Made by a program: the position numbers and the translations under genes. The notes beneath the pieces were generated by a model that did not search any database, had not been told where the DNA came from, and saw nothing but the letters and a program-made list of their open reading frames with translations. Shown in pieces: positions 19,868 to 40,268 of a DNA stretch of 41,421 nucleotides. Source of the DNA: a virus; IMG/VR virus record IMGVR_UViG_3300047300_000965, positions 1 to 41,421 of that record; one strand, given 5' to 3'. How positions within the stretch are numbered: position 1 is the first letter of the stretch; each line of letters starts with the position of its first letter.

Positions 19868-21082
19868 TCAAGCACCTTCAAAACTATCTGTCTCCATCCG
19901 CCCAGCCATACGGACGATACGGGGCTGGAAAGAGGCACAGACGGTAACCAAGTCCTGCTGGGCATCCATTACCAGATTGATGTCCTTGTAAGCCTGTGGC
20001 GACTCATCCACGCCTCCCCCGAGGCACTCGACCTTGTTGTCTCGGAGCATCTTGTTGATGTCCTCCTGCTTGATGGTCTTGATAGCCTTGGAGCGGGACA
20101 TAGCCCGCCCAGACCCGTGGCTGGCTGAATTGATGGAGTCTGGGTTACCGTTCCCAGTCACGATGTAAGCCTTGGTAGCCATCGAGGATGGGATGATACC
20201 CGTCTTGTGGAGACCCGCAGGGGTAGCCCCCTTGCGGTGGACATACAGCATCCTGCCATCGACTTCTTCCAGCCAAGCAAAGTTGTGGTGGTTGGAGATG
20301 ACTCGGATGGGCTTGGACATCCAAGCGTCAGAGCCGAGACCCATACGGACATTGTGGTGGATGACCTCGTGGTTGAGGGCGGAGTATTCTCCGCACAGGT
20401 TCATCAAGTCCCAGTAGTCCCGTCCCTCCTCCGTGTCCATAGAGAGCCACGACAGTTCGTTCAGAGGCTCGGGCAAGGGATTGATGGTAGCCGCCAACTT
20501 GGTGAAGTAGTTAGCCACCGTGAAGCCCAAGGAGCGTGACCCGCTGTGCGAGAGCAATGCGAGTTCGTTCGGGTAGTCCCAATCGACAGGCTGGTCGTAT
20601 GTGCCCCACTCTACGAAATGGTTGCCCGCACCAGATGTGCCCAGTTGGAGAATGGCTCGGTCTTTGACCGATGAGCCATCGAACATCTTGATACCGTGCT
20701 TCTCCAACTTATTCCAGCGAGGGTCGTCAAAGATGGGGTGGCTGACCTTCTTGTGGTTTGGGAGCGATGTCCCGCCAAAGTATGTGCAAGCGAGGAGCGA
20801 GCCACGCAACTTCTGTCGGAACTCCTCGTTGGAGAATGAGTCGTTGCCGTTGAGTCCGATGACGGAGAGGTGCATACGGCATCCGATGTCCACGCCCACG
20901 GCGTAAGGGATGACGGCGTTATCAACGGCACACACGCCACCGATGGGCATCCCGTATCCTTGGTGAGCGTCTGGCATCAAGGCTCCCTTCACCACGGGGT
21001 CGAGGGACATCACATTTTCCATCTGGGTGATGGCTCCCTGCTCGATGTGTTCTTTGCCGAATGTCGTGTATGGTTTGGTCAT
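19868..21082 (-). CDS. rtcB: RNA-splicing ligase RtcB
   Basis: A 404-residue RtcB, a Mn2+- and GTP-dependent ligase that joins 2',3'-cyclic-phosphate or 3'-phosphate RNA ends to 5'-OH ends. Every family motif is present: MPDAHQGYGMPIGG (36-49), VGVDIGC with metal-binding Cys68, GTSGAGNHFVEW (148-159) with His155, HSGSRSLG (179-186), SNHHNFA (263-269), HRKGATPAG (282-290), and the guanylylation site SASHGSGRAMSR with His322. Length is typical for the shorter bacterial/phage forms. ATG at 21082 (MTKPYTTFG) was preferred to a TTG at 21118, which is part of a TTGACA element 30 bases upstream. It is transcribed divergently from the small-gene island. With two phage tRNA genes elsewhere in the window, repair of cleaved tRNA is a reasonable role. 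Confidence 0.95.
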   Translation of the reverse strand: MTKPYTTFGKEHIEQGAITQMENVMSLDPVVKGALMPDAHQGYGMPIGGVCAVDNAVIPYAVGVDIGCRMHLSVIGLNGNDSFSNEEFRQKLRGSLLACTYFGGTSLPNHKKVSHPIFDDPRWNKLEKHGIKMFDGSSVKDRAILQLGTSGAGNHFVEWGTYDQPVDWDYPNELALLSHSGSRSLGFTVANYFTKLAATINPLPEPLNELSWLSMDTEEGRDYWDLMNLCGEYSALNHEVIHHNVRMGLGSDAWMSKPIRVISNHHNFAWLEEVDGRMLYVHRKGATPAGLHKTGIIPSSMATKAYIVTGNGNPDSINSASHGSGRAMSRSKAIKTIKQEDINKMLRDNKVECLGGGVDESPQAYKDINLVMDAQQDLVTVCASFQPRIVRMAGRMETDSFEGA

Positions 21083-21240
21083 AGAGCCATAGCGAACCGT
21101 TTGGGAAAGCCCTGTCAATACCCAGAAAATAGCCCGAAATTACCCCCTCAAAATAATTTCACTTTTGCTCTTGCAATACGCAACCAGTTGTGATTGTATG
21201 TCCTCGTTCCAATCAACGACCACCCAATAAATAAAACACA
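21083..21240. promoter_or_regulatory. Divergent intergenic region between rtcB and the plus-strand island
   Basis: 158 bases between oppositely oriented genes, AT-rich in the middle. On the minus strand TTGACA (21113-21118) lies 30 bases before the rtcB ATG. On the plus strand a TTGCAA (near 21172) with TGTATG about 18 bases later is a weak promoter match, followed by a CA-rich leader (CAACGACCACCC, AATAAATAAAACACAATG). Both genes probably start here, but no consensus -10 is visible. Confidence 0.45.
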
Positions 21241-29421: not shown

Positions 29422-30393
29422 TCAACGGCTTACGGCATAAGCCGAGTTCATAACGGTCGTGGCGACCGAGTTTCTGAACGCCTTGATTTCGTCCATCAGT
29501 TCCTTGAAAGAGTCCTTATTGGCGGTAGCCAGACCCTTCTGGACGGCGATGTCCCCGTAGAATGTCTGACCTTGGAGGTCAGCCTCATTGGCGAACAGGC
29601 GGACAGCCTTGATGTCGGCGATGAAACGGCGGTGCAGTTCCACGCACTCCTCTTGGAGATTTGCCTTTTGGTTGTCCGTAAGGCTCGTGCCGCTCACGCC
29701 AGCCGCCTTGTATTCGCCGCTCTTTATGACCACGACAGTCTTGCCTTCATCGGCAAACTTCTGGGACTCATCGCAGATGGTGAGGTAAATGCCTACGGCT
29801 CCGAGTTCGGAGGACGGTGTGCAGACAAGGCGTGTGCATTGCGAGGCGAGCCAATAAGCCGCCGAATTGCATTGGGTTTCGACCCAAGCGATGGTTGGCT
29901 TGTTGTAAGTGCGGATTTTCTTGGCGAGTTCCTGCAAGCCCGTGGTTGTGCCACCGCCAGAGTCGAACTTGAATACGACTTCTTGGACATCGGCACGGTC
30001 AGCCCAGAGGTCAAGAGTCTGGGAAACTTCATCAATGTCCACGCATCCGAGCATCCGTTCAAGGGGGGACATACCCTTACCGATGACTCCATCGATGGTA
30101 ATGACTCCTACGCCATCAACGACATAAGGGACTGAAACAGGCTTAAAAGCCTTCATTTTCTCGAAATCATCATCTTCATCGCCTTCATCATCGGCGTAGA
30201 TGGCTTTCTTACGCTTCTTCACGAGAGGCTTCATAGCCTTCTTGATAGCATCGTTGCTATCGGCGTATTTCGAGAGTAGGTGAGCGAGTTCTGGCTGATT
30301 AAGAACCTGCTGTGCGTTCCAGAGGAACGCTTCAACTCGGAGGGGGTCAATAGCCTTGGGGCGGGACGATTGAAGGGTCAGCAAAATGCTCAT
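29422..30393 (-). CDS. S49-family head maturation protease (lambda gpC-like)
   Basis: A 323-residue serine protease of the SppA/ClpP-fold S49 family, which cleaves scaffold and portal-vertex proteins during head maturation. GVGVITIDGVIG (94-105) and the oxyanion-region FDSGGGTTTGL (143-153) precede the nucleophile in TQCNSAAYWLAS (Ser177). Lys229 in IKSGEYKAAG is the likely general base, 52 residues downstream as is usual. The N-terminal 85 residues, with a very basic and then acidic stretch (KKRKKAIYADDEGDEDDD), are an extension. It starts right after the portal stop. No separate internal scaffold start was identified, and the downstream scaffold-like gene is separate. Confidence 0.9.
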   Translation of the reverse strand: MSILLTLQSSRPKAIDPLRVEAFLWNAQQVLNQPELAHLLSKYADSNDAIKKAMKPLVKKRKKAIYADDEGDEDDDFEKMKAFKPVSVPYVVDGVGVITIDGVIGKGMSPLERMLGCVDIDEVSQTLDLWADRADVQEVVFKFDSGGGTTTGLQELAKKIRTYNKPTIAWVETQCNSAAYWLASQCTRLVCTPSSELGAVGIYLTICDESQKFADEGKTVVVIKSGEYKAAGVSGTSLTDNQKANLQEECVELHRRFIADIKAVRLFANEADLQGQTFYGDIAVQKGLATANKDSFKELMDEIKAFRNSVATTVMNSAYAVSR

Positions 30394-30395
30394 TT

Positions 30396-32042
30396 TTAGA
30401 GGGGGACATCACGGCGTGACAGCCCTTGATTTTGTTTTGGGATGCTGTCAACGGCGAGATTTGTCTCTACCGCAGGATTGTCGATGCCATCACCAGAGAC
30501 ATCTGGCGGGTTAAGTTCTGGGTCGCTATTGTTGAGCGGCGAGTTGCCGTCTTGCGGCTGGGGAGGAACCTCACCGCCAGCGGGTGGCTGACCTTCCGCT
30601 CCACCCTGCGGTTGCTGGGGAGGCATATTCGGATACTGGTTCCAGAGACGGTCTGCCGAAATGCCAGTTTCTGCGGCGATGCGGTCAATGTAAGCCAAGT
30701 CTCGTGCCTTCTTGCGGATGGACTTCTCGAAACCCATACCACGGGATTGGAAGTCGTCAGAGGGGAGAGTCCTACCCATAGTAAGGTCGGCTCGTTCGTT
30801 GGCGGAGTCACGACCAGCGTCAACGGAGACGCTCTTCGGACACACCCATTCGCACTTCCACCAGTTGCGAGCAGAGGGTAGGTCGCCCTTGTTAATCTTG
30901 GTTCCGAGCCAGAACTGGAAGTATGGCTTCAAGAAACGACCGATAATGATGTTCTGTCTCTGCGAGAAATAGCGTGAAGCCTTCGCTGTGACCAGTCTTA
31001 CGCTGGCTCCGCCAGCCTTGGTTGGGTCAGCCGTGAACTCGTATGGCACAGAACCCATAGTCGAGTCCCTGCGGAGATGTTCGATAAAGCCAGTAAACGC
31101 CGTGGTCGGACGAGCCGATTGGTAAGGAGTCAAATCCTCATTGGTTTGCAGGACGGCTGTAACGCCACCAAGCACTCGGTTCACCGACTCCGCTGTGTTC
31201 AGTTGGGAGTTCGGGACATTCGGCTGACCAAGACCAACATCGCCAGCATCGGGGGTAGTATCATTGGTTTTGAGGATGCGTGATGTGCGAGCGTTGTCCT
31301 TGGCGGCGACTTTCTCCATCGCAAGCAAGTCCATCTCGTCACGCAGGTTGGAAATGGCGTGTTGATGAGGCGGATAAGCACGAGACTGCGAGGCGTAAGA
31401 CGGCTCGTAGATGTGCATCATCGAGGATGCGGGGACGGCTGTGAAGTTGCCGTCAGACTGCTTTACGAAATACTGGGTTGGCTGACCGTAGCGGTTGTAG
31501 CGGATACCGTCATAAATGCCTTCCTTGCCCATAAGGGTCGGAGGGGTATCGACTCGGTGGCACTCGATGAGTTGGAACTTCGGGATGCCGTTACGCTTGC
31601 ACTTGATGGCAAAGATTTCTCCGTCTCGGTCAAGAGCCTCGCAGATGATGTGCTGGCATTCGACCATCGAGAACCTACCAGACACTTCTGGGCTTTCGCA
31701 TTCTTGCTCCCATTCAGCCTCAACGATGTTCTGCCACTCGAAATCTCCGCCGAGGGCTTGCGGGGTGATGCCGTCACCAATGGCGTAAATCGCCGTGTCC
31801 TTGAACATTTGGCGATACAGACCGTTATTCTTTTCAAGGTAGCGTGAGAGACGGACAAGTTCCTTGCGGGTGCTTTCCGTCATCTCCCTACGGAAGTCAT
31901 CCGCAGGAGGAGCATCGACACGGGTTCTCGTTACGCTCTGTCGAGCGGACTCAAATGAACCTTGGTAAGCCAGTTTCGCAAAGGCTTGACCGATTGATTG
32001 TCGGAGCCTTCCGACAAATGACATCTTCTTGATTTCGCTCAT
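30396..32042 (-). CDS. Portal protein, lambda family
   Basis: A 548-residue portal of the lambda gpB family, the dodecameric ring through which DNA enters and leaves the head. Recognisable segments are ARQSVTRTRVDAPPADDF, the LVRLSRYLEKNNGLYRQMF helix near the start, YAIGDGITPQ, ECQHIICEALDRDGEIFAI, and the hallmark PPHQHAISNLRDEMDLLAME region about halfway. The C-terminal ~90 residues are Pro/Gln/Gly rich (NMPPQQPQGGAEGQPPAGGE), as in other lambda-type portals. It overlaps the gpW-like gene by 4 bases. Confidence 0.9.
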   Translation of the reverse strand: MSEIKKMSFVGRLRQSIGQAFAKLAYQGSFESARQSVTRTRVDAPPADDFRREMTESTRKELVRLSRYLEKNNGLYRQMFKDTAIYAIGDGITPQALGGDFEWQNIVEAEWEQECESPEVSGRFSMVECQHIICEALDRDGEIFAIKCKRNGIPKFQLIECHRVDTPPTLMGKEGIYDGIRYNRYGQPTQYFVKQSDGNFTAVPASSMMHIYEPSYASQSRAYPPHQHAISNLRDEMDLLAMEKVAAKDNARTSRILKTNDTTPDAGDVGLGQPNVPNSQLNTAESVNRVLGGVTAVLQTNEDLTPYQSARPTTAFTGFIEHLRRDSTMGSVPYEFTADPTKAGGASVRLVTAKASRYFSQRQNIIIGRFLKPYFQFWLGTKINKGDLPSARNWWKCEWVCPKSVSVDAGRDSANERADLTMGRTLPSDDFQSRGMGFEKSIRKKARDLAYIDRIAAETGISADRLWNQYPNMPPQQPQGGAEGQPPAGGEVPPQPQDGNSPLNNSDPELNPPDVSGDGIDNPAVETNLAVDSIPKQNQGLSRRDVPL

Positions 32043-32287
32043 CGGTCAACGGTTCTGTTGTAGTTTGTGTAGAGTGTTCTGACTCTCCCGTTCAGCCGTT
32101 GCAAGGCGTAGTTCGCTTCTTGCAGTAGGCGGTCTGGCGGCATCGTGAACTGCTTGCTTGTGTTCGTGGAACCATCAGACCAAGACATAATGGTCTTGCC
32201 TTCAAGAAGCAGGGATACCGCTTTCGCTTGGATTGCTTCAAGCGTGGCACGGGGCAAACCAACGAGAATACCATCGGGCGATGACAT
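32039..32287 (-). CDS. Head-tail connector protein, gpW-like
   Basis: An 82-residue protein with the alpha/beta/alpha pattern of lambda gpW: helix (LPRATLEAIQAKAVSLLLEG), beta hairpin (KTIMSWSDGSTNTSKQFTM), second helix (PDRLLQEANYALQRLNGRV) and a basic tail. gpW stabilises packaged DNA and provides the surface for head-tail joining. Its place just before the portal is the same as in lambda. ATG lies 13 bases after a TTGACA. Confidence 0.75.
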   Translation of the reverse strand: MSSPDGILVGLPRATLEAIQAKAVSLLLEGKTIMSWSDGSTNTSKQFTMPPDRLLQEANYALQRLNGRVRTLYTNYNRTVDR

Positions 32288-32320: not shown

Positions 32321-32491
32321 TCACTTACGCTTGGGAGGAACGCCGTATTTCGGCTTCACGACACGCTTCTTATCCGCTCGGTCTGCAAGTTCGGACAGTT
32401 GCTTCCACTCCGCACCATCGTTGGTGAAGGTGTATTCTTGCTCTACACGGGCGTTATCCTTTTGGGATGGCTTGGATGGCTTTTTGCTCAT
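32321..32491 (-). CDS. Small basic protein, second copy of the duplicated cassette, 56 aa
   Basis: A 56-residue protein (MSKKPSKPSQKDNARVEQ...) ending VVKPKYGVPPKRK. It is clearly a paralog of the 52-aa gene at 33942-34100: both start M-x-K, contain (N/D)D-x-(A/S)EW followed by a charged helix, and end VKPKYGxPPxKK. ATG at 32491 was chosen to match the paralog; an earlier frame start overlaps the larger gene. Each small gene follows a large JAMM-like gene. It could be a partner, chaperone or packaging tag for the large protein. Confidence 0.7.
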   Translation of the reverse strand: MSKKPSKPSQKDNARVEQEYTFTNDGAEWKQLSELADRADKKRVVKPKYGVPPKRK

Positions 32492-32524
32492 TTGAGTTGA
32501 AATAGTATTGGAACGGAAGCGGTT

Positions 32525-32542
32525 GATAATGCAAGCATTATC
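32525..32542. promoter_or_regulatory. 18-bp perfect dyad, operator-like
   Basis: GATAATGC-AA-GCATTATC: two perfect 8-base inverted arms with a 2-base spacer, overlapping the stop codon of the 464-aa JAMM-like gene. The loop is too short for an RNA hairpin, so a dimeric DNA-binding protein is the likelier reader. A copy with one mismatch in the 14-base core lies at 36806-36819 in the noncoding region. Confidence 0.45.
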
Positions 32543-33932
32543 TTCCAAAATTAAATCCGCCTCCCGTAAGGAAGCCTCCGCCACCAGAAAGACCACCGCT
32601 GAACAGACCAGTTGTAGGGGCTGTGTAGTTTCCAGTCGGTGTGCTTACGGTGACTGTCTTTGGAGGAGTTCCGCCAGCCTTTCCTTTCGGCTCCTTGGGC
32701 GGTTCTGGGTCTGTAACCTTGGGTGGCTTGGGAGCCGCTGGCTTACGCTTTGGCTGACCGTCACCACCAGTCGCTCTCGTAGCAAGCCCATTGGCAGTCC
32801 TACCTGCTGGGATTGTGTCGCCGCTTGAATTGAGCGGTGTGACTCCCTTGGGAGGCTCCTGCCTTATCTCACGATAAATCTGCGTCCCAGTCTTGAAGTT
32901 CTTGGTTTCGGCACGGACGGCATCAATGGTTCCGCCGTTGGCGGCACGACCGACAGCCTCATAGCCCTTGGCGGGTTTGAACTCAAACTGGATGCCATAC
33001 TTGGCGAGGATGGCTTTCTGGTTAGCCGCCATCAGAGCAAGGCAATGCTGGCTATTGAAGAACTTGTCGTTGGTAGGAGGGTATCCGCCAGCGAGAACAG
33101 CAGACCCATACTTCATCACATCCCTGTTGGATGCGGCGATTTCCTTGGCGGCTACCTTCATCGCAATCTTGTTTTTGACCCACTTGTCGCCTCGTTCGTA
33201 TTCTTGGGCGAGACCACCAGCCTTGATGCGGAGCATCGCAAGTTGGCTATCGCTCAATGTGGCGTTGTTACCACGCATAATGTATGTGCCCTCACGACCT
33301 ACCGCTCTGGTTTCGAGGCGTTGGGTGGTTCCGTGGTTGCCGACATCGCCCTCCGAGAAAGCCAGTCCGTGAAGGCGGCTTCCTGCGTCATTGTATTTCG
33401 AGATGTCGCCATCCCGTCCGAGTTTCTTGTTATCGGTATCCCAGATTTCAGATGGGTGTGTGTGGGTCATAATGCCGTCTCTTGATACGGGCACTCCGTT
33501 CTTATCAAGTGGGTTGTATGTCATCACGCTTCCTTTTCCGCCCTTTTGAATTGAAATCAGTTCGCCGTTCTTGTCCCAAGTGATGCCATATTCCAGACCA
33601 TTGTGCGTCTCACGGTGTAGGAGACCGTCCTCAATGTTTTCACGGCTGTATCGTGAGTCCTTGCTGTTGTATTCGTCCTTGGGTGGCATCCCTGCATCAC
33701 GGCGAGCAAGATAATCGAATGCCGCCTCAACGCCACGGCGTTCCGCCTTGTTCAAATCCTTCTGGGCTTCCATATCGGTCGTATGAGCCTGTTTCGCCAT
33801 AGCGACAGCGGTATCGACTTGGTGCTGGTATTTGAAAGTTGTTTTGAGGTCTGTGACCTTTTCCTCACGGGCAAGCACATCGGATGCCCGAGCGGTCTTA
33901 CCATTACGCTTATCTCCTTCTTCCGTGGGCAT
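32538..33932 (-). CDS. JAMM-like metalloprotease-signature protein, second copy (464 aa)
   Basis: A 464-residue paralog of the 490-aa protein encoded just upstream; both start MPTEEGDKR and end in a Gly-rich ...F-x-TGGGFNF-x-R tail. Core motif: LEYG (Glu114), THTHPSE (His157-x-His159) and AFSEGD (Ser193-x-x-Asp196), which fits the JAMM/MPN signature E...HxH...SxxD that binds zinc in isopeptidases and in lambda gpK-like tail proteins. The stretch between HxH and SxxD is much longer here (33 residues) than usual. Residues about 345-445 are Pro/Lys/Gly rich and disordered. No NlpC/P60 domain follows. It sits between terminase and portal genes. Peptidase activity is inferred from the motif only. 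Confidence 0.6.
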   Translation of the reverse strand: MPTEEGDKRNGKTARASDVLAREEKVTDLKTTFKYQHQVDTAVAMAKQAHTTDMEAQKDLNKAERRGVEAAFDYLARRDAGMPPKDEYNSKDSRYSRENIEDGLLHRETHNGLEYGITWDKNGELISIQKGGKGSVMTYNPLDKNGVPVSRDGIMTHTHPSEIWDTDNKKLGRDGDISKYNDAGSRLHGLAFSEGDVGNHGTTQRLETRAVGREGTYIMRGNNATLSDSQLAMLRIKAGGLAQEYERGDKWVKNKIAMKVAAKEIAASNRDVMKYGSAVLAGGYPPTNDKFFNSQHCLALMAANQKAILAKYGIQFEFKPAKGYEAVGRAANGGTIDAVRAETKNFKTGTQIYREIRQEPPKGVTPLNSSGDTIPAGRTANGLATRATGGDGQPKRKPAAPKPPKVTDPEPPKEPKGKAGGTPPKTVTVSTPTGNYTAPTTGLFSGGLSGGGGFLTGGGFNFGR

Positions 33933-33941
33933 CGGCGTGGC

Positions 33942-34100
33942 TTACTTCTTTTGGGGCGGAATACCGTATTTCGGCTTAACGCCAGCATTCTGTCTCTTTC
34001 GGACTTCCTCGATTTTCTTCATACGCTCCCATTCGGATGCGTCATCGATGATGCCGATTTTGTAGAGGTCTGGCTTTGGTTTTGGTTGTTCTTTTTTCAT
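33942..34100 (-). CDS. Small basic protein, first copy of the duplicated cassette, 52 aa
   Basis: A 52-residue, highly basic protein: MKKEQPKPKPDLYKIGIIDD, a helix with EWERMKKIEEVRKRQ, and the end VKPKYGIPPQKK. Paralog of the 56-aa gene at 32321-32491. ATG at 34100 chosen to match that paralog. It precedes the second JAMM-like gene by 9 bases. Unknown function, but strict pairing with the large gene in both copies argues for a joint role. Confidence 0.7.
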   Translation of the reverse strand: MKKEQPKPKPDLYKIGIIDDASEWERMKKIEEVRKRQNAGVKPKYGIPPQKK

Positions 34101-34139
34101 TTGGGTGTGAGAGTAGTGAAGCGGTTGCAAAGTCAAGTA

Positions 34140-35612
34140 TTATCTTGTGAAGTTGAAGCCACCGCCCGTGACGAACGAACCTCCGCCAGATGAGAAGCCA
34201 GAGTTGTTTCCGCTTCCGCCACCGAAATCAATGACTGGGACTACGAACGGCTTACCGCCTACTACCGTAACTGACGGCTTGTCCTTGATTGTCACGGGAG
34301 GCTTTGCCCTCGGCTTTATGTCCGTTGGTTTTATCGGCTTGGGGGCGGGAGGTGGTGTCTCAACTTTTGGCTTTGGGACACGCTTACGCTTCCCGTCACC
34401 GCCAGTAACGGTTTGAGGTGAGCCACCGCTTGTGGTTGGGGCTGGTGAGGGTGCGGGGGTCGGCTTGGCTTTCTGAACTGGGATATGGTCTCCGTCTCTC
34501 GTGTAGCCACGGGGTAGGGTTGTGGAAGGATTTGGCATCGGCTGGTTGACCGTATCTGGTATGCCAGCCATCCTCACGACTCCGCCAGCAACCATCGTCA
34601 AGTCAGCCCTTCTGGCTGACGGAGGAAGGGCGTAATAGCCGTCTTGGCTTGTTGGCATCGATGTCTTGATTGCTTTTTCCATAGCCTCAAACCCCTCACG
34701 GGCTTTGAACTCGTATTGAACCCCATAACGCTGGCATATTCTTGCGTGTCCGATAGCCAGCATCGTTCCATATTTTGGGCTGTTGAACCAGTCCCCGCCA
34801 GCCTTGTAGTCAGAGGAGCGGTCGCCATACATTTGCAAATGCTCCGAAATCGCCCTCGCCTCTTTTGCCATAACGGAACAGGCGATTGAGTGTCTCTCTG
34901 ATGCAGATGAGGTTTTCTCGTAGATTTCTGCAAGCCTTCTGGTATCCTTGTCCGTGGACTTCTTCATATTTTCAAGAAGTCCTTGGGGCAGGGTTGCCCT
35001 GCCCTTAATCGAATAAGTCCCTTCACGGGCGACAGCCCTCATCTCCGCAAGGTCAAAAGTGCCAAAGAACTCAATGTCGCCCTTTGAAAAACTATGACCA
35101 AGCAACCTGTCATTGTTATCGGTAGGATGTGAGTGAGTCACAGTTCCTCCCTCCAACTGGCTACTGTGGGTCGAGTATGTAGCGACATTTGCTTTTTCTC
35201 CTTTATTGATGGCAATAAGTTCCCCGTTCTTATCGTAAGATGCGGCAAACTCAACGCCGTTGTTGGCGTTATCAAGCATCAGCGTCTCCTCAATAGCCTG
35301 CAAACTATGGCGAGATGTAGGGTCGTCCTTCTCGTTCTTTGGAGGATAACCAAGGTTTCGTCTGCGTTCGTAGTCAAATGCGGCTTCCAGCCCTCTGCGA
35401 TTAAGGACTTCTGGGTTTTTCAACTGCTCATCGGTCGGCTTGTCGGGTGAGTTGTCGTATGCTTTTTTTGCATCATCCAAAGCCAGCAAATACGCCGCAG
35501 TATTTGTATCCAATAGTTTCTTCAATTCTTGATACTCCGCAATACGCTTCTCCTCCGAAAGCACATCGCTGGCTGACCTGCCTGTGCGTTTATCCCCTTC
35601 TTCGGTAGGCAT
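34140..35612 (-). CDS. JAMM-like metalloprotease-signature protein, first copy (490 aa)
   Basis: A 490-residue protein. Start at 35612 (MPTEEGDKRTGRSAS) chosen because the paralog begins the same way. A charged helical N-terminal region (1-85, with RRGLEAAFDYERRRNLGYPP) leads to a domain with VEFA (Glu121), THSHPTD (His160-x-His162) and SFSKGD (Ser176-x-x-Asp179), matching the JAMM/MPN+ zinc motif with a 13-residue gap in place of the usual 7. A conserved RAVxREGTY follows. The last ~110 residues are Pro/Lys/Gly rich ending GGGSFVTGGGFNFTR. It follows the tRNA region and starts the cassette pair. Options include a virion-maturation peptidase or an enzyme that removes host ubiquitin-like tags. 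Confidence 0.6.
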   Translation of the reverse strand: MPTEEGDKRTGRSASDVLSEEKRIAEYQELKKLLDTNTAAYLLALDDAKKAYDNSPDKPTDEQLKNPEVLNRRGLEAAFDYERRRNLGYPPKNEKDDPTSRHSLQAIEETLMLDNANNGVEFAASYDKNGELIAINKGEKANVATYSTHSSQLEGGTVTHSHPTDNNDRLLGHSFSKGDIEFFGTFDLAEMRAVAREGTYSIKGRATLPQGLLENMKKSTDKDTRRLAEIYEKTSSASERHSIACSVMAKEARAISEHLQMYGDRSSDYKAGGDWFNSPKYGTMLAIGHARICQRYGVQYEFKAREGFEAMEKAIKTSMPTSQDGYYALPPSARRADLTMVAGGVVRMAGIPDTVNQPMPNPSTTLPRGYTRDGDHIPVQKAKPTPAPSPAPTTSGGSPQTVTGGDGKRKRVPKPKVETPPPAPKPIKPTDIKPRAKPPVTIKDKPSVTVVGGKPFVVPVIDFGGGSGNNSGFSSGGGSFVTGGGFNFTR

Positions 35613-35754: not shown

Positions 35755-35828
35755 TGGCTGGGAAGGAGGGAGTCGAACCCACGCCCGAGGATTTGGAGAC
35801 CTCTGTGCTACCGTAACACTTCTTCCCA
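35755..35828 (-). tRNA. tRNA-Trp (CCA)
   Basis: A 74-base cloverleaf on the minus strand including encoded CCA. Acceptor TGGGAAG pairs with CTTCCCA; D-arm GTGTTACGGTAGCAC; anticodon stem-loop GAGGT-CTCCAAA-TCCTC with anticodon CCA; T-arm GTGGG-TTCGACT-CCCTC; discriminator G, then CCA. There are single U-U mismatches in the anticodon and T stems. It is followed by a GC-rich hairpin (AGCCCGC...GCGGGCT) that may be a processing or termination signal. Confidence 0.88.
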
Positions 35829-36228: not shown

Positions 36229-36303
36229 TGGAGGTATTGGACGGAGTTGAACCGACAACCGCCTGTTTACAAAACAGGTGTTCTGCCATTGAACTACAAT
36301 ACC
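36229..36303 (-). tRNA. tRNA-Thr (TGT)
   Basis: A 75-base cloverleaf on the minus strand with encoded CCA. Acceptor GGTATTG/CAATACC is perfect; D-arm GTTCAATGGCAGAAC; anticodon stem-loop CCTGT-TTTGTAA-ACAGG with anticodon TGT; T-arm GTCGG-TTCAACT-CCGTC; discriminator T, then CCA. A perfect GC-rich hairpin follows its 3' end. Reads ACA and possibly other Thr codons. Confidence 0.92.
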
Positions 36304-38429: not shown

Positions 38430-40268
38430 TTATGTATCTGACGCTGGCTTTTCGCTCTCCGCTTTCGGTTCTTCCACCGTTTTCGGTGCTACATTCAGCA
38501 AGCCAAACGCCAATGTCGGCACGAACTGCATCACTTCACAGTCCCACAAGTGGTTCGCTCGCTTACCAATTCGTTTCCATTCTGGTTTTCCATTCGTGTT
38601 CATCGCACGGACTTCGCTCTCCATCTGCTCCAAGTATTCTTGTCCGCTATCAGAAGCACAAGTGTGCTTGCCCGTTCTACGCAAGCGAGAGAGTTGGTCT
38701 TTCAATGCAAGATTGGAGAAGTGATGCACACGCACAACACCGCCGCCAGCATTGACCAATCTCGCTGGTGCGTAAACTTTGGATACATTCTTCACGCCCT
38801 GTGCCGTGGTGATACGCCACGGGAAGTCATAGCGTTGGTCACCACGCAACGCAGTCCATTTGTGGATGCCGCAGTTTCGTATCACATCATCGAACTGGTC
38901 ACCGCAGTCCACATACACGAACGCTGGGATGACATCGTTCGTTTTCGCCATAGCATCGACATCCTCCCAAGTCTGCACAAACTTCCATTTCACGAGACGG
39001 CTCCTGCCGTCCATAGCCCACGAACGGATGAGACAGTAGAAGCCAGTTCTCTGCACATCGACCGTCATAAACCTTGCCCGTATCTGGTTCGTCTTTGTCC
39101 TGTCCGTATGGAGTCTGCGGGTCAGAGGGTCTATCAGAGCCTCGTCCTCCCAGCCGTCACCCTGCTTGTAGTCACCGACCGACAACTGGGAGTCAAAGGC
39201 ATCTGGCTCGTCCGACCAAAACTTGGCTCGCTCCTTCTGCATAAAGATGCGGAGGGGGTTCACATCCCCCGTAAGGTCTGCAATCGTCTTGGCTCGGAGA
39301 TACTTCTCGGCGATGGCTCCCCACGGGCGGGCACACACGGACTCCCAACTGAACCCGACATTCTCGGGTGAGGCGGTCGGTGTGGTCTGGGCGTAGAAGC
39401 CCTTGGCGTTCATCTCGTCTCGGGACGCTCGGCTGTCTCGGAACTGGTGCTTGCACCCCTCGCACTCGTATGTCGTCTCCGTGCGAATTACCGAGTAGTC
39501 GTAGTCGCCCTCATAGTTCTTGGCGTGTTCGGGTATCCGTATCTGGTCGAATGTCCAAGGCTGTCTATGTCCGCAATGCGGACACGAGAACGACCATTGC
39601 CGTCTGTCCGTAGTAAGCCATATCTCCTCCGTCTCGTCCTCGGCGTAGCCTCCTTGGCTCATAAGGATACGCTTACCAAGCCAGCCGAACGAGGTCACAC
39701 GGGCGGAGGCTTCCGCCAAGTGCCCCTTGGGATAGAGCCAAGTCTCGTCAGCCACAAGCCAGCGGATGGAACGGCGTTGGAGGTTCTTCTCGTTGAACGC
39801 CCCGAGACACCAGAAGGTCATCTCGTCCGTCTGGACTGTCGTGCCCTTCTTGCCTTGCTCCTGCGAATTGAGTTTGGCTTTCACGGGTGGGCAATTGTCC
39901 CATAGCACCCGCAACCTACTCTGCATCCAGTCGGACGCATTATGGTCTGTATCGTTGAGGTAGAGCGTTGGGGCGGGCTGACGGGCGATGATAAAGCACG
40001 ACAGCAACTCCGCCATCAAGGACTTGCCAGACTGAATGGGGGCGATGATGACCGACAATCTAATCTCGGGGTCAACACACGCCCGTAGTGGCTCTATGAG
40101 CCACGGCGTATCCTGCACTCGAAACCCAGATGGCATCGGCGAGAACGGTATCTGCTTCACATTCCGAACCAGCCAATCGACCACATCCTCCCTGTCGTCT
40201 GGCTTGAAGATGCGGCGGAGCCTCGCTTCCAACTGGTCTGCGACCCTACGCTTCTGGGACGAACTCAC
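38430..40268 (-). CDS. terL: Terminase large subunit, lambda GpA family
   Basis: A 612-residue packaging motor and endonuclease that translocates DNA into the prohead and cuts it. Walker A is APIQSGKS (76-83); Walker B with the catalytic carboxylate is RWLVADE (169-175); a Cys pair CPHC (229-232) and CEGC (269-272) suggest a zinc finger, as in GpA proteins. The nuclease domain shows FMTVDVQRTGF (Asp404), VYVDCGDQFDD (Asp454) and a late HLWDCE, which are the expected metal-binding acidic residues. Length agrees with lambda gpA (about 640). It overlaps the small subunit gene by 4 bases. The GpA family usually cuts at cos or related sites; no cos site was identified by eye. Confidence 0.93.
   Translation of the reverse strand: MSSSQKRRVADQLEARLRRIFKPDDREDVVDWLVRNVKQIPFSPMPSGFRVQDTPWLIEPLRACVDPEIRLSVIIAPIQSGKSLMAELLSCFIIARQPAPTLYLNDTDHNASDWMQSRLRVLWDNCPPVKAKLNSQEQGKKGTTVQTDEMTFWCLGAFNEKNLQRRSIRWLVADETWLYPKGHLAEASARVTSFGWLGKRILMSQGGYAEDETEEIWLTTDRRQWSFSCPHCGHRQPWTFDQIRIPEHAKNYEGDYDYSVIRTETTYECEGCKHQFRDSRASRDEMNAKGFYAQTTPTASPENVGFSWESVCARPWGAIAEKYLRAKTIADLTGDVNPLRIFMQKERAKFWSDEPDAFDSQLSVGDYKQGDGWEDEALIDPLTRRLHTDRTKTNQIRARFMTVDVQRTGFYCLIRSWAMDGRSRLVKWKFVQTWEDVDAMAKTNDVIPAFVYVDCGDQFDDVIRNCGIHKWTALRGDQRYDFPWRITTAQGVKNVSKVYAPARLVNAGGGVVRVHHFSNLALKDQLSRLRRTGKHTCASDSGQEYLEQMESEVRAMNTNGKPEWKRIGKRANHLWDCEVMQFVPTLAFGLLNVAPKTVEEPKAESEKPASDT

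Follow-up and report, generated by a model that had tools for sequence, protein, structure and literature searches.

The internal proteins of phage T4 are diverse defence proteins united only by a capsid-targeting sequence (PMC3012670), and it has been proposed that MuF proteins bring effector domains into host cells (PMC5512222). Some effectors contain JAB domains, and JAB toxins with immunity genes exist (PMC3482391); the JABs of toxins and of RadC are predicted nucleases, and members from phages and nucleocytoplasmic large DNA viruses (NCLDV) have been noted (PMC3482391, PMC5512222). Here, we describe a tandem duplication of a two-gene cassette in the complete IMG/VR virus record IMGVR_UViG_3300047300_000965, the whole 41,421 bases of which were analysed and are called the window. 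Each cassette encodes a large protein with a predicted JAMM/MPN fold (JAMM1 and JAMM2), followed by a small lysine-rich protein (small1 and small2). The reading that we favour, with a probability of roughly 45%, is that JAMM1 and JAMM2 are tagged head cargo with isopeptidase-type activity on a host ubiquitin-like conjugate, assisted by the small partner.

JAMM signature of the duplicated large proteins

An earlier note on this DNA had reported the tandem two-gene duplication, with a common start (MPTEEGDKR), an HxHP...FSxGD core and a TGGGFNF end in the large proteins. All of these elements were found, with the four genes on the minus strand (Table 1). The results showed that JAMM1 and JAMM2 can be aligned from end to end (BLASTP, 34% identity over 489 columns, E 9e-54; MAFFT, 42%), that their first nine residues are identical and that small1 and small2 are also paralogues (E 3e-8). 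The large proteins had been described as strongly diverged outside the core; they have indeed diverged, but residues 72-145 and 290-315 form further conserved blocks, so that the similarity extends beyond the core.

The glutamate, the HxHP residues, the serine and the aspartate of the JAMM signature (numbered in Table 1) are invariant in 16 homologues, some of which are just 17% identical, and the full JAMM catalytic set E, HxH(P), S, D is thus present in both copies. This invariance argues against a structural protein that has kept the fold and lost catalysis, an explanation that would suit the unusual and variable spacing between HxH and S but that we regard as extremely unlikely. JAMM2 carries about 20 additional residues between HxHP and SxxD compared to JAMM1, so the two copies differ beside the active site.

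A search with AlphaFold models for a JAB/MPN fold had been set beforehand as a check on the JAMM assignment. The cores of both models are confident, with many residues above pLDDT 90, and a DALI-like structure comparison ranked JAMM/MPN structures first for both, filling almost the entire top 30, followed by the structurally related deaminase fold. The best matches were BubCD (Z 6.2), AMSH (5.6) and Cap3 (5.5) for JAMM1 and PfJAMM1 (5.3), Cap3 (4.8) and an AMSH-type protein (4.8) for JAMM2. A structural search of BFVD (viral models) returned minor capsid proteins and also frog virus 3 3R. On the modelled fold and the conserved residues, the assignment of JAMM1 and JAMM2 as JAMM/MPN-fold proteins holds; a zinc-dependent isopeptidase-type activity would follow the pattern of the family. 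In Pfam, neither JAMM1 nor JAMM2 matched any family, DUF4329 included, at E ≤ 10, Pfam and PHROGs gave nothing credible for any of the four cassette proteins, and the sequence-profile search of PDB returned noise alone.

Conservation of the pair and age of the duplication

Related phages were gathered with the portal gene and with the gene in the lambda gpW position as baits, and the pair was counted at the 34 loci where 1.5 kb or more of sequence lay upstream of the gpW-position gene. The result showed that, in the slot between terminase and gpW/portal, a JAMM gene and a small downstream gene were present at the same 15 loci and that neither was present at the other 19. A p-value for this co-occurrence would mislead, because the loci are related, some being near-duplicates, and themselves served to build the small-gene profile. 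Among the more divergent JAMM genes, each one whose downstream region is intact has its own charged neighbour of 50-65 amino acids. Judged by these gene neighbourhoods, the JAMM gene and the small gene are a real unit, with a pairing conserved far beyond the window phage. The earlier note had thought the pairing undescribed, and no previous account of it, or of N-terminal tags of the kind discussed below in these phages, was found in the open-access papers searched.

Strict adjacency and co-occurrence would also suit a toxin-immunity style pair, in which the small protein would keep a toxic JAMM protein neutralized in the producing cell until packaging, and JAB toxins with immunity genes provide a precedent (PMC3482391). 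We consider this very unlikely, given that the small protein, at 50-65 amino acids, is highly charged, varies greatly and has no match among known immunity families. A ubiquitin-like identity of the small partner was ruled out by its size, lysine richness, unconserved sequence and lack of a family match. Two other candidates were set aside. The KPKYGxPPxKK end is not a family-wide motif, being confined to the branch of the window and its two nearest relatives (L001 and L063), and a Pfam match of small1 to PIP5K (E 0.007) falls under that family's cut-off and was put down to composition. Scans with P0013 and P0014 matched solely their own contigs.

The 9.7 kb IMG/VR relative L001 carries the same double cassette, and the next relative, L063, a single one. 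Identity between the window and L001 is 60% for each JAMM protein, 63% and 59% for the small proteins and 93% for the portal protein; as L001 holds both copies at this distance, the duplication is old. In the tree, JAMM1 of the window groups with JAMM1 of L001 (support 100/100) and JAMM2 with JAMM2 (99/99), and the single L063 protein branches as the common sister of these four (support for all five together, 100/99), implying that the duplication postdates the split from L063 and predates that between the window and L001. Two cassettes in the slot were seen in these two phages only, and one copy in ten other records searched whole. The start of the small genes is best placed at ATG, because a TTG extension of small1 upstream of it is out of frame in L001.

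The ratio of nonsynonymous to synonymous substitution rates (dN/dS) is 0.18-0.27 across the four cassette genes and about 0.07 for the portal and protease genes. Selection on all four is purifying, yet weaker than on the portal and protease genes; for the JAMM genes, at 0.22-0.27, it is three to four times looser than for the portal gene, and the view that selection has kept the motif is borne out.

The shared N-terminus as a candidate packaging tag

In the nine codons of the start common to JAMM1 and JAMM2 there are five synonymous changes and no nonsynonymous one. Related phages carry from four to at least 19 otherwise unrelated proteins that begin with one phage-specific peptide (two in L054). 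Two of them, G405 and G406, have no JAMM gene in the slot, yet a divergent one elsewhere, within runs of genes that are alike at the N-terminus only (Table 1). The start MARGYSQSRSE occurs on at least 19 genes of G405 and a MARGSNSREGRAARSE-like start on at least 11 genes of G406, the JAMM protein being among them in both. Tagged genes also occupy the terminase-gpW slot itself, with four in L040 (2623-5619), two of which encode mutually related pentapeptide-repeat proteins, and two in L054 (4582-5967); the slot JAMM protein of L029 begins with MARGSTAREGRTARSE. In G405, the tags differ on average by 6.1 synonymous versus 1.0 nonsynonymous changes per pair of 11 codons, and the bodies of the proteins are about 6% identical. 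Since synonymous changes predominate while the bodies are unrelated, the G405 tag has been kept as a peptide and is not recently copied DNA. The start in G406 is likewise maintained at the protein level across diverged synonymous sites. By analogy with T4, such shared peptides are a possible virion-packaging tag. In the phage of L063 (record G393), three adjoining genes (L143 2383-4046) have a long start, KYAESGTGGIPRRAFNDPRALASLGSSNL, in common, and the start of the L063 JAMM protein, KFAEELSSKRIGFNRALDL, is loosely similar to it.

A tag profile built from the tags of other phages alone was scored on 1,373 candidate starts in the window. JAMM2 ranked first (10.6) and JAMM1 second (9.2), which suggests that their common start is such a tag; the argument is strong in the relatives and only suggestive in the window.

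The location of the cassettes, next to the terminase, gpW-position and portal genes, and the fusion of homologues to MuF minor head proteins could also point to a head-assembly enzyme that acts within the producing cell, trimming or deconjugating a phage structural protein, and is not passed on to the next host, the common start being a prohead docking peptide. This alternative seems unlikely to us. The JAMM gene is accessory, being absent from the slot at more than half of the loci counted above, the module already encodes an S49 head protease, and the shared start of the relatives also occurs on pentapeptide-repeat and other proteins that do not look like assembly factors. The cargo role is favoured over maturation because the start of JAMM1 and JAMM2 resembles a tag found on many unrelated proteins in relatives.

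In the favoured cargo reading, JAMM1 and JAMM2 would be paralogous metalloproteases of a phage-head accessory family, each co-encoded with its small partner in a cargo slot running from terminase to portal. Their N-terminus would act as a phage-specific targeting tag, as the capsid-targeting sequence does in T4, by which the enzyme would be packaged in the head and reach the host during infection. Once in the host, it would act by removal or clipping on a substrate that is isopeptide-linked or a C-terminal tail, with a host ubiquitin-like conjugate as the most plausible candidate, and the small protein would probably be an assembly or activity partner. The duplication and the differing loop beside the active site suggest that the two enzymes would act on two substrates. 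Besides the tag, this reading draws on the position of the cassettes in the head module, on the presence of the same domain in MuF minor head proteins and on the weaker constraint compared with the portal gene.

Several observations weigh against this reading. The structural Z scores are modest, at about 5-6, and with the full-length model plain Foldseek found no PDB match at E ≤ 0.001; the latter was attributed to the long disordered tails, and the DALI-like aligner was therefore applied as a second look. Given these scores, the JAMM claim rests on the consistent match list and the invariant residues. The second histidine lies 13 residues from the serine in JAMM1 and 33 in JAMM2, compared to 7 in the canonical H[ST]H-x7-SxxD spacing (PMC300881); this spacing is a consensus from which divergent members may depart. 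As for the tag, the third-ranked start in the window scores 9.1, so the margin is narrow, and the start is common to the two paralogues only, so that the term 'tag' rests there on resemblance to other phages. Most other slot JAMM proteins (L011-L017, L058, L065 and L066) begin with a different motif, MGRSYEMKEGRR, which occurs once per phage and does not fit the profile. No ubiquitin-like protein, E1 (activating) or E2 (conjugating) enzyme was recognized in the window, where no dedicated scan for them was made, the neighbours of the JAMM genes being head genes or tRNAs. The hosts are probably Verrucomicrobiota, because relatives of the gpW-position gene occur in Akkermansia and Verrucomicrobiaceae genome bins, and Prok-E2_B, the single prokaryotic E2 family searched, matched 3 of 387 Verrucomicrobiota genomes; a general need for a JAMM enzyme in these hosts is thus not shown. 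Counter-defence against ubiquitin-like conjugation, which the earlier note had raised with Bil and CBASS with Cap2/Cap3 in mind, is still a candidate role.

The apparent rarity of ubiquitin-like systems in the likely hosts would be easier to reconcile with a JAB-fold effector that acts on something other than ubiquitin-like tails, for example nucleic acid or nucleotides, the targets suggested for RadC and the Tox-JAB toxins. The predicted nuclease function of toxin and RadC JABs (PMC3482391, PMC5512222), the presence of RadC among the fold matches and the frog virus 3 protein from BFVD are consistent with this. We nevertheless judge it quite unlikely, as peptidase JAMMs (BubCD, AMSH, Cap3 and PfJAMM1) head the structural matches and RadC stands lower, although the scores are close, and there is no DUF4329 match.

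The cassettes define a family of phage JAMM proteins beyond the reach of Pfam and PHROGs, with a conserved small partner, and its location in a head cargo slot makes a delivered deubiquitinase-like enzyme plausible. If the shared N-termini are packaging tags, candidate delivered proteins could be listed from sequence by their repeated N-terminus, a handle that makes cargo carried into the cell directly testable. A wider version of the cargo reading, in which a system common to this Verrucomicrobiota-associated lineage loads up to about 20 unrelated proteins into the head by a peptide of each phage's own, with the JAMM enzyme and its partner as a repeatedly carried component that removes ubiquitin-like immune conjugates of the host as the phage enters, is at present doubtful.

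Gene context and comparison with known systems

A lambda-like head module, encoded on the minus strand, occupies the right half of the window. It contains both terminase subunits (small and large), two tRNAs, the two cassettes, an 82-amino-acid gene, the portal protein, an S49 head protease and the major head protein. The phage, the tRNAs of which are tRNA-Trp and tRNA-Thr, also encodes an RtcB-type tRNA ligase (19868-21118, minus strand; PHROG 1075, E 1.4e-90).

Table 1. Features of the double cassette and its surroundings in the window, and tagged-gene runs in two relatives
Feature	Coordinates	Strand	Basis or remark
JAMM1, 490 aa; JAMM residues E121, H160, H162, P163, S176, D179	34140..35612	-	
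JAMM1 N-terminal tag-like peptide MPTEEGDKRTGRSASD	35565..35612	-	Identity to JAMM2 over 9 residues; tag-profile rank 2
JAMM1 predicted catalytic domain and following helical part, residues 104-304	34701..35303	-	Model mostly high-confidence
JAMM1 tail, Pro/Lys-rich then Gly-rich, residues 363-490, predicted disordered	34143..34526	-	Short homologues without tail
JAMM1/small1 junction with TTGAC and CAACCGCTTC	34101..34139	-	Near-identical in L001
Small partner 1, 52 aa, Lys-rich, net +7, C-terminal end VKPKYGIPPQKK (KPKYGIPPQKK)	33942..34100	-	
JAMM2, 464 aa; JAMM residues E114, H157, H159, P160, S193, D196	32538..33932	-	
JAMM2 N-terminal tag-like peptide MPTEEGDKRNGKTARASD	33879..33932	-	Tag-profile rank 1
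JAMM2/small2 junction with CAACCGCTTC	32492..32537	-	Near-identical in L001
Small partner 2, 56 aa, Lys-rich, net +7, C-terminal end VKPKYGVPPKRK (KPKYGVPPKRK)	32321..32491	-	
Terminase large subunit, far border of cassette slot	38430..40268	-	PHROG 15, E 2e-59
Portal protein	30396..32042	-	PHROG 21, E 2e-43
Head maturation protease, S49/ClpP-like	29422..30393	-	PHROG 53, E 9e-46
Conserved 82-aa gene adjoining portal, lambda gpW position	32039..32287	-	Family search gave no identity; bait for relatives
Two tRNA genes (tRNA-Trp, tRNA-Thr)	35755-35828, 36229-36303		
G405 tagged-gene runs	L136 218-5367, L139 1759-16898, L153 10723-12892, L154 2846-4035		
G406 tagged-gene runs	L135 5041-9687, L137 706-10370, L155 5652-6479		

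The two JAMM/small junctions had been said to resemble each other, and the exact string CAACCGCTTC was present in both, with the orthologous L001 junctions nearly unchanged. TTGAC occurs no more than 45 nucleotides upstream of 9 of 26 minus-strand gene starts in the window, against a background of 6%, and the likeness of the junctions in part fits this wider habit of the phage. A Shine-Dalgarno-like sequence was seen at few gene starts; together with the upstream TTGAC, this points to an unrecognized expression signal. The repeat as an element for cassette mobility is unsupported, as the gene strand holds no further exact copy.

Among named proteins, JAMM1 and JAMM2 are closest to the C-terminal domain of MuF minor head proteins. 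The MuF protein WAX12352 of Dorea phage DO134P1 was matched by tblastn (3e-4) and by hmmsearch with the family profile (5.4e-11), and the same domain occurs in a MuF context in faecal phage MT837107 and in MuF-like open reading frames of Verrucomicrobiota genomes (L128 and L129). JAMM matches were present in 5 of the 387 Verrucomicrobiota genomes, some of them fused to MuF, and the host genomes holding gpW relatives gave no JAMM match. In Aphanizomenon phage vB_AphaS-CL131, gp044 (L118 3839-4519) is a solo member of the JAMM-like domain family amid structural genes.

Compared with described systems, Cap3 of the CBASS antiphage defence and BubCD have the JAMM fold and catalytic set and are among the best structural matches; however, they are enzymes of host defence operons with E1, E2 and ubiquitin-like partners, none of which was recognized beside the phage JAMM genes. 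Lambda tail protein K (JAB plus NlpC/P60) likewise places a JAB peptidase gene next to virion genes, but it belongs to the tail module, carries an NlpC/P60 domain and has a ubiquitin-like partner, gpI; JAMM1 and JAMM2 have no NlpC/P60 match, and their neighbours are the 52-56-amino-acid lysine-rich proteins and head genes. Tox-JAB-2/DUF4329 and RadC-type JABs have the JAB fold with E, HxH, S and D and occur in phages, giant viruses and effectors, whereas the window proteins have no Pfam match, another gene context and a partner gene. The T4 internal proteins, a diverse set with only an N-terminal peptide in common (PMC3012670), offer a cargo-set logic that the tagged genes of G405, G406 and L040 resemble; in the window, the peptide is common to the two paralogues only. 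The T4 proteins have no sequence relation to the proteins described here, the candidate packaging peptide of which varies from phage to phage. The MuF C-terminal JAMM-like domain is homologous, including the helical part and the end that follows it, keeps E, THNHP, S and D and is likewise encoded by a head-module gene. In those proteins the domain is fused to MuF (PF04233, present in the Dorea homologue and absent from JAMM1 and JAMM2), whereas JAMM1 and JAMM2 stand alone as duplicated proteins, have tails and are each accompanied by a lysine-rich small gene.

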